Positions 29,448-54,558 of a stretch of DNA of 64,000 bases are shown here, one piece after another. The stretch lies in contig CAMBYH010000001.1 in NCBI GenBank assembly GCA_945872065.1, positions 62,001 through 126,000 on the forward strand. Direction: 5' to 3'. The DNA is from Arsukibacterium tuosuense. Its GTDB lineage: Bacteria; Pseudomonadota; Gammaproteobacteria; Steroidobacterales; GCA-2729495. The notes beneath the pieces were generated by a model. That model saw nothing but the letters and a program-made list of their open reading frames with translations, made no database searches and was not told the DNA's origin. The position numbers were made by a program, and so were the translations under genes. How positions within the stretch are numbered: the stretch's first letter is position 1; each line of letters begins with the position of its first letter.

Positions 29448-29750
29448 TCAGTCCTTGATGGGAAGCTGGCGGTTCTTGTTGACGCGATCGCGCAGATCCT
29501 TACCGGGCTTGAAGTGCGGCACATGCTTCCCGGCCAGCGCGACGGCATCCCCTGTCTTGGGGTTACGCCCCATGCGGGGCGGCCTGAAGTGGAGTGAGAA
29601 ACTGCCAAAACCGCGAATCTCGATGCGCTGACCACCGGCCAGCGCATCGCTCATGAGATCCAACAGATGCTTCACCGCCAACTCGACATCCTTGGTTGGA
29701 AGATGCTTCTGCTTACGGGCCAGAACCTCGATTAATTCCGACTTTGTCAT
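29448..29750 (-). CDS. ihfB: integration host factor, beta subunit
   Basis: 100 residues, partner of IhfA. The HU/IHF fold is clear: [41 protein letters not shown] with the DNA-intercalating proline arm, and [16 protein letters not shown]. It follows rpsA by 54 bases, the standard gammaproteobacterial order. Confidence 0.97.
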
Positions 29751-29804
29751 CGCTGCGTGCCCATCAAACTTACCCCGCTCAACCCCTTACTGCGGCGACC
29801 AAAG

Positions 29805-31490
29805 TCAGGTGTCGCTAGCCTTGGAGATCTGCTCCTTCAGGAGTTCGCCCAGAGTGGTGGCGGTACTGCCCGACGAACTGTCACTTCGATAGCTTTCCAT
29901 TGCCTGGGCTTCTTCGTGGGCGTCCTTGGCCTTGATGGACAATGACACCACGCGGGTCTTGCGATCGAGACCGGTAAAGCGGGCTTCAATCTCGTCACCG
30001 ACCTTGAGCAAGGTACGCGCGTCTTCGACCCGATCCCGTGAGAGTTCACTGGCCCTTAGCTGGCCTTTGATTCCACCCTCCAGATCCACGACGGCGCCAC
30101 GCGCATCCACTTCGGAGACGACACCCTTCATGATCGAGCCCTTGGGGTTATCCGCAAGGAACTTGGAGAAGGGATCCTGATCGAGCTGCTTGACCCCGAG
30201 GGAAATGCGCTCGCGCTCCGGATCGATCGCCAGAACCACGGTATCGACGTCTTCACCCTTCTTGTAGTTGCGGACGGCCTCCTCGCCAGGCACATCCCAG
30301 GAGATGTCGGAGAGATGCACAAGTCCATCGATGCCACCAGGCAAGCCGATGAAAATACCGAAATCCGTGATGGACTTGATCTTCCCGGAGACCTTGTCGC
30401 CCTTGTTGTAACCGGTGGCAAAATCCGACCAGGGATTGGTCTTGCACTGCTTTATGCCAAGGGAAATACGGCGGCGCTCTTCGTCGATATCGAGCACCAT
30501 TACTTCCACTTCATCGCCAATCTGCACGACCTTTGCGGGACTGACGTTCTTGTTCGTCCAGTCCATCTCAGAAACGTGCACAAGGCCCTCGACGCCTTCC
30601 TCGATCTCCACAAAACAGCCATAGTCGGCGATGTTGGTGACCTTGCCGAACAGACGCGTCGTGGGGGGGTACCTTCTGGAAATGGCCTCCCAGGGATCAG
30701 AACCCAACTGCTTCATGCCGAGGGAAACGCGATTCTTCTCCCGGTCAAAGCGCAGGATCTTGACCTCAATCTCATCACCCACGGTGACAACTTCTGATGG
30801 GTGCTTGACTCGCTTCCACGCCATGTCAGTGATATGCAGGAGACCATCAATGCCACCGAGATCGACGAATGCGCCGTAGTCCGTAAGGTTCTTGACGACG
30901 CCCTTGACGGTAGAGCCTTCCTGCAGATTGGCCAGCAACGCTTCCCGTTCCTGGCTGTACTCGGCCTCAACGACCGCCCTGCGGGAGACGACGACATTGT
31001 TTCGTCGACGATCCAGCTTGATGACTTTGAACTCGAGCTCTTTACCTTCCAGGTAAGAGGGGTCACGCACTGGCCGCACATCTACGAGTGAGCCGGGAAG
31101 AAAGGCCCGGACGAACTCGATGTCAACGGTAAACCCGCCCTTGACCCGTCCATTAATGATTCCCTTGACGATCTTGCTGTGCTCGAAGGCATCTTCAAGC
31201 GCCTCCCAAGTACGGACGCGCTTGGCGCGTTCCCGGGACAGCTTGGTTTCTCCAAAGCCATCTTCCACGGAGTCGAGAGCGACTTCGACGTGGTCACCAA
31301 CCTTGACCTCGAGTTCGCCACGTTCATTCTTGAACTGGCTGGCCGGGATGACGGCTTCAGACTTCAGGCCGGCGCTGACGACTACGGCCTCGGAGGAAAC
31401 TTCGATCACCAGCCCCATCAGGATGGTGCCGGGCTTGATCCGTGTATTGGCGAGACTTTGCTCGAAGAGTTCGGCGAAATTATCCGTCAT
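29805..31490 (-). CDS. rpsA: 30S ribosomal protein S1
   Basis: Binds mRNA at the ribosome and helps unfold leaders. 561 residues with six S1 OB-fold repeats; repeats 3-6 carry the strong pattern VTxxxDYGxFVxLxxGxxGLxHxSxxxW. The 152-base gap to cmk (31491-31642) is the likely rpsA leader, the site of S1 self-control in E. coli; it contains an A7 run but no simple hairpin that I can defend. Confidence 0.98.
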
Positions 31491-49800: not shown

Positions 49801-49829
49801 TTGACTAGACATAACTTTCGCCCTAACCT
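49801..49829 (+). promoter_or_regulatory. possible promoter of the first DUF6502-type gene
   Basis: TTGACT (49801-49806), 17-base spacer, TAACCT (49824-49829), giving a start about 20 bases before ATG 49856. A second TTGACA at 49832-49837 would need a -10 element over the start codon. The whole 49780-49856 stretch is AT-rich compared with its surroundings. Confidence 0.45.
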
Positions 49830-49855
49830 CTTTGACATAACGAATTAGAAAGAAT

Positions 49856-50671
49856 ATGGAAGCCGACCTTAAGGCAGCGCTGCTGACGGCGTATGCACGG
49901 CTTCTGAGGCCACTAGTCCAGATCCTGTTACGCAACGGCATCTCTTACTCCGAGTTTGCTGATACGGCCAAGCGGGTTTTTGTGAACACAGCTGCGACAC
50001 ACATTGGCAAGGGCAAGGCTGAAGTTTCAGCTGCGCAGATCGCCATTCAGACGGGACTCTCGCAGCGCGAGACGCAGGAGATTCTCGACGGACGGAGCCA
50101 GCCGGCGGTGAACACAAATCTGGCCAGGATTGCTGCCCTATTAACGGCTTGGCATAGCGACGACCGGGTTGTTGGCCCGTACGGATTGCCGCTTGAACTT
50201 CAGCCGCGCGAACCGGGCTGCATGGATTTTGAGACCTTGGTTCGCGAGTACTGCCCTGGAGCTGATCACGGCCCGCTGCTGAGCCAGCTCATTGCAATTG
50301 GAGTGGTTCGACAAACAGACGACGGCTGGTTGCGTGTCCTGACCAGGACTTACCTGCCGGATGTGGACGCTCCCGACAGCGTGGAACGGATCGGCTACGC
50401 GGTAGAGCGCCTAGTTGAAACCGTCGACTTCAACCGCCAACAGCAGGACCCGGAGCAGCGGCTTTTTGAACGGACCGTCACCGCGGACTTTGGACTGAAA
50501 GAAGAAGACTTGCCGGCATTGGAAGGCTTTGTCCGGCAGCGCGGCCAGCAGTTGCTTGAAGAAATCGACAACTGGGTAACGCTCCGCGACAAGCCGGACC
50601 TAGAGCGCGGAGACCGGGCAGTCCAGACCGGCTTGGGCATTTATCACTTTGTAGACGGCTGGAAAAACTAA
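49856..50671 (+). CDS. DUF6502-type protein, probable winged-helix regulator
   Basis: 271 residues, function unknown. The N-terminus RPLVQILLRNGISYSEFADT and the segment VSAAQIAIQTGLSQRETQEIL (about 57-77) look like a helix-turn-helix DNA-binding region, typical of DUF6502 as I recall it. The middle and C-terminal part is helical and ends GLGIYHFVDGWK. A diverged paralogue lies in convergent orientation at 51589-52407. No signal peptide or membrane helix. The secreted repeat protein gene begins 41 bases downstream in the same direction, so the two are probably one operon. Confidence 0.8.
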   Translation: MEADLKAALLTAYARLLRPLVQILLRNGISYSEFADTAKRVFVNTAATHIGKGKAEVSAAQIAIQTGLSQRETQEILDGRSQPAVNTNLARIAALLTAWHSDDRVVGPYGLPLELQPREPGCMDFETLVREYCPGADHGPLLSQLIAIGVVRQTDDGWLRVLTRTYLPDVDAPDSVERIGYAVERLVETVDFNRQQQDPEQRLFERTVTADFGLKEEDLPALEGFVRQRGQQLLEEIDNWVTLRDKPDLERGDRAVQTGLGIYHFVDGWKN

Positions 50672-50712
50672 AACAAGACAAACGTCATCCGGATATCTCA
50701 GGGAAATAGCAG

Positions 50713-51543
50713 ATGAAAATCGTCAGCAGCATCGCATCTGCCCTGGTCCTCTCACTGAGTTGGTCTTTGGCAGCTGCCGAAGCATCGGCCGACATGGCCG
50801 GTATCCGAATCGTTGGTCAGGAAGTCGACGGTACGTTGGTTCTTGATGACACGGTGAGCGGTCTCTCGACCTGGGCAACGCCAGGCTTGGCCATGCCCGC
50901 TGGGGAATCGGTGGAATCCGCGCCAACCCTGCTGGTGATTGGGCACCTTGAGGGTTGGGATCCAAAGACGGGTGTCCTGACTGTTTCGGGGCAGACCATG
51001 ACCCTGGCTGACGGCGCCACGATCATTGACGCTCCGCGAGATATGCAGGCGACACTCACAGCGGACAGCGTGATTTGGTACCTGCAGCAAGGTCGCTACA
51101 CTGCCGTGGCCGGCGACACTTTCGGCGGCGGCGAGAGCCTCGCAACCCACATCGTGCGGCTGGACAACGAAACCAAGCCGGGCACGGCACCCATCTATGT
51201 TCGGGGCTCACTGGACCTGGTTGATGACCTTCAGGGTATCGCCTATATGGGCGGCATGGCGCTGAGTCTCAACAGCATGACATCTGGCGAGTTTCCTTCG
51301 ACTGGAAATCTCGTTGAAGTCATGGCCTATGAGGCTACCGCCGGAAACGCGATCGTCACGAATTACTCCAGCTTGGATGCAGAAGACTCGAGAGGCACCA
51401 AGTCTGGGCTCGCTGGCATCAGTGGCAGCGGCGCTCGGGCCCAGGGCATCAGCGGCAGTGGCATCAGAGTCAGGACATTAGGCATCAGCGGCAGCGGCGC
51501 TCGGGCTCAGGGCATCAGTGGCAGCGGCGCTCGGAAAAAATAA
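50713..51543 (+). CDS. secreted DUF5666-like protein with a C-terminal GISGSG repeat tail
   Basis: 276 residues. Signal peptide KIVSSIASALVLSLSWSLAAA, then a predicted beta-rich body of about 215 residues. Two segments resemble DUF5666 modules: LLVIGHLEGWDPKTGVLTVSG and IYVRGSLDLVDDLQGIAYMG followed by LVEVMAYEATAGNAIVTNY. The tail has four copies of GISGSG-x-R with basic linkers (AQ, VRTL, AQ, KK). No cysteines in the mature part. GGGA lies about 10 bases before ATG 50713. Secretion is supported by the signal; function of the tail is unknown, perhaps surface or polysaccharide contact. Confidence 0.8.
   Translation: MKIVSSIASALVLSLSWSLAAAEASADMAGIRIVGQEVDGTLVLDDTVSGLSTWATPGLAMPAGESVESAPTLLVIGHLEGWDPKTGVLTVSGQTMTLADGATIIDAPRDMQATLTADSVIWYLQQGRYTAVAGDTFGGGESLATHIVRLDNETKPGTAPIYVRGSLDLVDDLQGIAYMGGMALSLNSMTSGEFPSTGNLVEVMAYEATAGNAIVTNYSSLDAEDSRGTKSGLAGISGSGARAQGISGSGIRVRTLGISGSGARAQGISGSGARKK
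51415..51540 (+). repeat. four-copy in-frame repeat encoding GISGSG units
   Basis: Copies begin at 51415, 51445, 51481 and 51511, with spacings 30, 36 and 30 bases. The shared unit is GGCATCAG[C/T]GGCAG[C/T]GGC followed in three copies by GCTCGG. The third and first copies are almost identical, pointing to recent duplication or slippage and possible length variation. Confidence 0.9.
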
Positions 51544-51588
51544 TAGACATCGGTCACGCTCACCCGCCAAGAACAGCCTTCGCCCCCT

Positions 51589-52407
51589 CTAGGAGCGGAA
51601 GTTAGCTGGATCGTCCACGAACTGATAGAGACCCACGCCAATCACTTCGTTAGCTTCTGACTGTGTTTCTCGATCAGCCTCAGAAAGCAGATCATCTATC
51701 TCGTGGGAAAACTCCTTAAGGCGTTCCGCTAACAATCTATCTATCGCTCCCCGCTGCGCCTTAGGAAGACAGTAGTTCCAAACGATTCGTTGAAAGCGCA
51801 GCTGTCTGCCATCATCAGTGCTAGCGTTGTAGGCGACAGTCATTCCAAGTTGGCGTATTCCGTACTGCAGCCCCTGAATCAGCCTCTCCTCAGTGGTTCC
51901 CGGAATGAATGATCGCCGATTCGCAACGAATAATCCGTTCTCTGACTCCGACACGGCGCCTACCCGAACTAATTCGGCCCGCATCGTACTTGGCGAAACA
52001 CTGCGAGAGCATTGACGCACCAATTCGCAAAACGAATCATTCCCAGAGTCCCAGGTGAGAGATCTCGGCTTACCGGAGGTACTACAGAATCTGAAATCTG
52101 TATGCCACAAAGTTAAAACTTCCGATGGAAGACTTCGCACCTCATTGTTCGAAAAAGGCGCCTCTAGGAGCTGCGCCTGGACAAGACTCACAACCTTGCG
52201 AGGCAAGCCAGTCATCAAGGAGATTCGAGAGACGTTCGCCGATCTTCCACGAGACCCGTACTCATCCATCGCTACTCCGACAAATGCAGCTTTACACACC
52301 CTCTCAAAGTCGTGATAGGTGATACCGAACTTTAGGAGTATCGAAGCTATTGGACGGAGTGTCGCGAGCAGGACAGAGTAAACCGTCCCCCGTATTGGAT
52401 TGTTCAT
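51589..52407 (-). CDS. second DUF6502-type protein
   Basis: 272 residues. Aligns by eye with the 49856 gene: LRPIASILLKFGITYHDFER at the start, VSRISLMTGLPRKVVSLVQ as helix-turn-helix region, and GVGLYQFVDDPANF at the end. The identity looks low (roughly a quarter to a third), so this is an old or separately acquired copy. Its base composition is visibly lower in GC than the flanking core genes. It faces the repeat-protein gene tail to tail with a 45-base gap. Function unknown. Confidence 0.78.
   Translation of the reverse strand: MNNPIRGTVYSVLLATLRPIASILLKFGITYHDFERVCKAAFVGVAMDEYGSRGRSANVSRISLMTGLPRKVVSLVQAQLLEAPFSNNEVRSLPSEVLTLWHTDFRFCSTSGKPRSLTWDSGNDSFCELVRQCSRSVSPSTMRAELVRVGAVSESENGLFVANRRSFIPGTTEERLIQGLQYGIRQLGMTVAYNASTDDGRQLRFQRIVWNYCLPKAQRGAIDRLLAERLKEFSHEIDDLLSEADRETQSEANEVIGVGLYQFVDDPANFRS

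Positions 52408-52488: not shown

Positions 52489-54558
<2,070 letters not shown>

Follow-up and report, generated by a model that had tools for sequence, protein, structure and literature searches.

DUF6502 proteins as predicted winged-helix regulators paired with exported OB-fold proteins carrying GIxG[ST]G motifs

DUF6502 proteins are probably winged-helix regulators of their own operon and, in trans, of further DUF5666 genes, with an exported OB-fold protein that carries a GIxG[ST]G motif as their partner. From the architecture, synteny, co-occurrence, site enrichment and motif conservation observed in an overall comparison of more than 1000 genomes, we infer DNA binding, autoregulation, a role for the second DUF6502 paralogue and a ligand for the exported protein. 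Two domain families without an assigned function, present in about one quarter of the sampled gammaproteobacterial species, would be united as one system, and DUF6502 would gain a predicted molecular role together with a precise candidate DNA site. Our literature search found no paper on DUF6502 or GIGGTG, and DUF5666 was mentioned only in passing.

The window, the whole 64,000-nucleotide stretch of Arsukibacterium tuosuense DNA that was analysed, contains three genes of interest. DUF6502-A (A; 49856–50671, forward strand, 271 aa) is followed after 41 bp by S (50713–51543, forward strand, 276 aa), which encodes an apparently exported DUF5666-type OB-fold protein with a C-terminal GISGSG array. 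Convergent with S, at a distance of 45 bp, is DUF6502-B (B; 51589–52407, reverse strand, 272 aa), a clade-B paralogue by Pfam and tree. It lies 3' of ligA (52489–54546, reverse strand), its conserved upstream neighbour, as judged from the reading frame and synteny; in certain sister-genus genomes the two genes share 4 nt. The earlier note on this DNA had described three open reading frames with two flanking DUF6502 proteins, the 41-base spacing, the tail-to-tail position of B and its lower GC content, and all of these agree with the reading-frame positions, the Pfam matches and the base composition (51.2% GC in B versus 58.5% in A, 60.3% in S and 63.1% in ligA).

The same note took these genes for the only accessory-looking block of the window, which is wrong: throughout the family they keep their synteny with bolA on one side and ligA-zipA-smc on the other. 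DUF6502 is present in 37 of the 40 genomes of this family, and the gene order bolA-A-S-B-ligA-zipA-smc recurs throughout, with A and S on one strand and B and ligA on the other. Other families of the order have the same A-S-B trio next to ligA, either convergent or entirely codirectional (ligA-B-A-S). In a tree of 68 DUF6502 proteins, the split between B, the paralogue by ligA, and A plus C is fully supported, and A and C each form supported clades (paralogue clade support 100/99). B adjoins ligA in most genomes where the locus is readable. The third DUF6502 gene of the window's genome (G000), C, is located on contig C13 at 29588–30400 (L001, L053). A, B and C are thus old paralogue clades and the block is vertically inherited; it is not accessory, given the family-wide synteny and the tree. 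PHROG and plasmid searches of the block gave no match. Among known defence families, PADLOC reported a marginal match for B only (E = 0.0024, a partial SAVED_TM), and a toxin-antitoxin or defence system was dropped in view of this single marginal match, the lack of PHROG and plasmid matches and the conserved synteny. C is flanked by two six-module DUF5666 lipoproteins, of which only the downstream one has a GIDRLG motif. Clade-B-related DUF6502 genes also occur away from ligA, in another neighbourhood, in the window's genus (L071, L083, L089). A 3.4-kb contig labelled Planctomycetales (L102) carries S and a 55%-identical A; it is probably a misbinned gammaproteobacterial contig.

Both A and B are members of PF20112 (DUF6502), a family without a described function; the regulator role and the operator are new predictions. 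A matches over residues 8–266 (112 bits, E = 2.3e-32) and B over residues 16–265 (78 bits, E = 1e-21), both above the curated cut-off of 27 bits, and the two proteins align over their full length with 24% identity (E = 5e-28). The AlphaFold2 (AF2) model of A (pLDDT 89.5, pTM 0.75) places helices at residues 31–51, 59–66 and 70–78, with a helix-turn-helix (HTH) at 59–78, and a winged helix at 125–161 (helices 125–132 and 138–147, strands 151–153 and 159–161), followed by two long helices. DUF6502 is accordingly predicted to possess an HTH and a winged helix. No PDB structure gave a significant full-length fold match (E ≥ 0.17); the top insignificant matches include the winged-helix proteins SelB, ScpB, MarR, Rex and IclR. 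Sequence searches of the PDB gave no useful match, and Pfam HTH families matched only weakly. As in MarR, Rex and IclR one-component regulators, a winged helix, a palindromic site by the promoter and an autoregulated operon would be combined in DUF6502, but the lack of a significant sequence or fold match makes the family look distinct from them. An ScpB-like SMC partner, considered for the weak ScpB fold matches and the nearby smc and scpA genes, was dropped, as DUF6502 accompanies DUF5666 class-wide. The HTH consensus TGLTRKEVxR is retained in most DUF6502 proteins. The recognition helix of the window's A, TGLSQRETQEI, has diverged from this consensus, so that the window copy may bind a different site or none.

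Judged from its model, S is an exported protein with two OB-fold modules of the DUF5666 type. A low-confidence leader with a signal-peptide-like N-terminal helix precedes two high-confidence beta modules, and the tail of the monomer is unstructured and of low confidence. Module 1 (50920–51171, residues 70–153) has a pLDDT of about 90 over most of its length and, taken as a single domain, matches OB folds; module 2 (51184–51375, residues 158–221) is likewise delimited by the structure model. Foldseek matches to these modules are the OB folds of Ten1, PilY2, RPA14 and CusF (probability 0.9–1.0, E about 1e-2). S itself has no Pfam match, DUF5666 (PF18914) included, whereas 19 of its 25 aligned relatives match DUF5666 (best E = 2e-9). 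Relatives such as L110 score up to 29.1 bits against it, and a local profile detects two domains in the close relative L068. OB-like modules, export and a DUF6502 neighbour are what S shares with DUF5666 proteins according to the model, Foldseek and synteny, and its two-module OB layout is that of its matching relatives. It differs from PF18914 proteins in falling below detection, in having two modules as opposed to the usual four to six, in lacking a lipobox and in carrying a repeat array. The signal peptide and DUF5666-like beta modules ascribed to S beforehand are borne out by the leader helix, the matches of the relatives and the OB model.

The S tail forms one tandem array (51415–51534, period 30, 3.8 copies by TRF), made up of four basic units (51415–51540, forward strand) of 10, 12, 10 and 10 residues: GISGSGARAQ, GISGSGIRVRTL, GISGSGARAQ and GISGSGARKK. 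The four-copy basic Gly/Ser tail of the earlier note is therefore present, with an imperfect second unit. By sequence, this tail is an amplified form of a class-wide motif and no lone oddity. GIxGTG or GIDRLG stands between the lipobox and the first OB module in 42 of 48 DUF5666 proteins downstream of DUF6502 and in none of 13 directly upstream of it, a contrast scored with a loose pattern composed after inspection of the sequences, and with several of the 13 truncated at the locus edge. In relatives of S this motif also forms arrays, repeating every 8, 9 or 10 residues or irregularly (12–23 residues) at either terminus or at both, and two to four spaced GIGGTG copies are found outside Gammaproteobacteria. 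Array copy numbers are minimum values, as many contigs end inside arrays; six (L065, L068, L074, L077, L081, L090) break within the repeats of S, where assembly masks the true numbers. Amino-acid identity between array units exceeds identity at third codon positions (1.00 versus 0.59 in L035, 0.99 versus 0.68 in L160, 0.87 versus 0.40 in L122). The amino acids are kept while third positions drift, which suggests purifying selection on the peptide. The arrays clearly illustrate how a surface motif present once is multiplied into repeats while selection acts on the peptide, and offer a handle on the binding partner of the motif. Since basic residues are missing from many arrays (GINTGDVL, GIDQADVL, GIHGSDAL), the idea of a multi-core RiPP-like precursor cleaved at basic sites was dropped. 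Two exported proteins that adjoin DUF6502 (L154:2579–4459 and L168:3860–4351) have E-I-S/T-G-S-G directly after the signal peptide and no match to the DUF5666 profile; here the motif may count for more than the OB domain.

Pairing of the two families is not confined to the window's family. Among 369 gammaproteobacterial genomes, DUF6502 occurs in 99 and DUF5666 in 94; 83 have both, 16 only DUF6502, 11 only DUF5666 and 259 neither (p = 3e-53). Usually DUF6502 overlaps a downstream DUF5666 lipoprotein gene by 4–8 bp. Of the 30 class loci, 21 encode DUF5666 on the same strand directly 3' of DUF6502, as do almost all readable clade A and C loci, and in a phylum-wide sample of other classes and further genomes it adjoins DUF6502 at 17 of 18 loci. 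The recurrent neighbourhood, whose absence the earlier note would have taken as refutation, is thus found class-wide.

For a regulator role, DNA sites give stronger evidence than the fold. Upstream of DUF6502, the palindrome TGGGA-N6-TCCCA was detected in 16 of the 30 class loci, against 2.2 in shuffles (maximum 5). The search used TGGGAA-N4-TTCCCA with up to two mismatches and permitted gaps of 0–9; all 16 sites have gap 4. At the order level, 22 of 58 loci have the palindrome (shuffles 3.9), and outside Gammaproteobacteria it occurs with a 3-bp gap at eight DUF6502 loci. Exact TGGGAWWWWWWTCCCA is present in 56 of the 369 genomes, namely 46 of the 99 with DUF6502 versus 10 of the 270 without (p = 2e-21), and absent from the other 53 genomes with DUF6502. 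A reversed control pattern, found in 16 genomes of which 3 have DUF6502, showed no such link. Among the 75 exact sites listed, at least 32 lie at DUF6502 operons, with 13 of the genomes there outside the training set, and at least 9 are situated in front of lone DUF5666 genes; both figures are lower bounds because the gene tables used for distances are partial. One further site of the latter kind was found additionally. Palindromes before distant DUF5666 genes without an adjacent DUF6502 fit a trans-acting DUF6502 protein.

The palindrome is a conserved candidate operator family-wide, and the window has only a different element, ACATAA. Neither the A nor the B promoter of the window has the palindrome, and one-mismatch palindromes in its genome number 7 versus 5 for the control. 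The candidate A-S promoter and operator (49801–49844, forward strand), conserved with L099 and other clade-A promoters, would comprise TTGACT (49801–49806), a 17-nt spacer and TAACCT (49824–49829), with ACATAA copies at 49809–49814 and 49835–49840. Allowing up to three mismatches, the genome contains this core a single time. A sigma-70 consensus scan did not report it, and sigma-70 and terminator scans gave nothing beyond chance. ACATAA/TTATGT was identified in all 22 clade-A upstream regions (41 sites; shuffles mean 2.7, maximum 7) and in none of 28 clade-B promoters. Relative to the start codon, most genera have it near -70 and -10 and the window's genus has it at -47 and -21; some sister-genus clade-A promoters retain GGGAA-N4-TTCCC next to it. 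The simplest reading of these sequences is a change of site, in which conserved ACATAA replaces the lost palindrome. A loss of DNA binding by the window's A is possible, and the ACATAA copy near the start codon may instead serve as a signal in translation.

We propose that DUF6502 proteins would act as winged-helix, probably dimeric, one-component transcription regulators of their own operon and, in trans, of other DUF5666 genes. Class-wide, the partner would be an exported OB-fold lipoprotein with a single GIxG[ST]G immediately following the lipobox; the window's lineage would have a secreted protein whose motif has expanded to a tandem array. A would be co-transcribed with S and act on the A-S promoter via sites adjoining the -35 and -10 elements, and B, an old paralogue of the ligA operon, may tune this or another promoter. 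Beyond the inner membrane, the OB modules and multivalent GIxGSG array of S would bind a ligand or partner. The suggestion made beforehand, of a regulator of a surface or periplasmic protein, is well supported by the HTH/winged-helix model, class-wide adjacency, co-occurrence and palindrome as far as the family is concerned; for the window it is weakened by promoters that lack the palindrome. The further idea of a regulator pair, or of a regulator with an antagonist, gained no support; B is an old paralogue of the ligA operon.

Several other explanations were weighed against such a regulator. Rather than acting mainly on DNA, DUF6502 could be a cytoplasmic partner, co-produced with the exported protein and serving for example in its folding, targeting or stoichiometry, with the palindrome belonging to another regulator. 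The frequent 4–8 bp overlap suggests coupled, matched expression, the window's A lacks the consensus recognition helix and no fold match is significant, all of which would suit such a partner, but it seems unlikely since the palindrome follows DUF6502 presence among genomes, also precedes DUF5666 genes that DUF6502 does not adjoin, and the HTH consensus persists in most of the family. That A and B form an opposing pair, both binding the A-S promoter with A activating and B repressing, or acting as a heterodimer, we regard as quite unlikely: B is linked to ligA and not to S, and its promoters in the window's family are devoid of ACATAA, even though the positions of A and B around S are constant family-wide (convergent in some genera, codirectional in Woeseia-like genomes), no exported partner accompanies B itself and a related TGGGC-N7-TCCCA-like palindrome occurs in some B promoters at the order level. 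Horizontal gain of the block as an accessory or selfish element, to which the lower GC of B might point, is hardly credible in view of the family synteny, the 100/99 support for clades A, B and C and the place of B by ligA in most readable genomes.

It is very unlikely that the S tail is a phage-spike-like triple beta-helix and S a trimeric fibre. In T4 gp5 and VgrG, an OB module stands beside octapeptide repeats (VxGxxxxx) with a hydrophobic residue and a glycine two apart, a spacing and architecture that S-type proteins share. Many arrays have period 8, matches to pyocin spikes are weak, and Gp5_trimer_C (PF22178) matches L126 (2.2e-5) and L123 (0.012), both with scores under the cut-off. 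S-type proteins differ in being exported by a signal peptide, in their variable period, in having arrays on either side of the OB modules, N-terminal ones included, and in that most relatives class-wide have a single motif; the tail of S is modelled with low confidence as a monomer. Strict octads were not found in S, where the period is 10–12, and relatives have 8, 9, 10 or irregular spacing of 12–23 residues. With repeat spacing not fixed, a beta-helix spike was rejected as a general reading of the tail.

Returning to DUF6502 as a regulator, a broader proposal can be offered tentatively and falls somewhat short of probable: DUF6502-DUF5666 may be an undescribed proteobacterial envelope pathway with TGGGA-N6-TCCCA as operator, GIxGTG, expanded in several lineages into arrays with as many as some 40 copies, as dedicated assembly tag or multivalent ligand, and a regulon reaching multihaem cytochrome and other envelope genes. 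In genomes with DUF6502, exact palindromes lie near multihaem cytochrome genes in L219 and L234 (C7 and MtrC/MtrF-like matches), and L236, from a genome without detected DUF6502, has the same arrangement as L219. In L232 the site lies in a gene cluster with AprB, and other sites are near lipoproteins. These cytochrome, AprB and lipoprotein sites might belong to a wider regulon; they are single cases, and some will be due to chance. The exact-site locus of L218 is another DUF5666 gene. In three loci of one genus (L220, L224, L225) the palindrome is followed by a P-loop (MobB-like) gene and then by an ABC-transporter-like gene, and in two of them it sits just past a DUF5666 gene.
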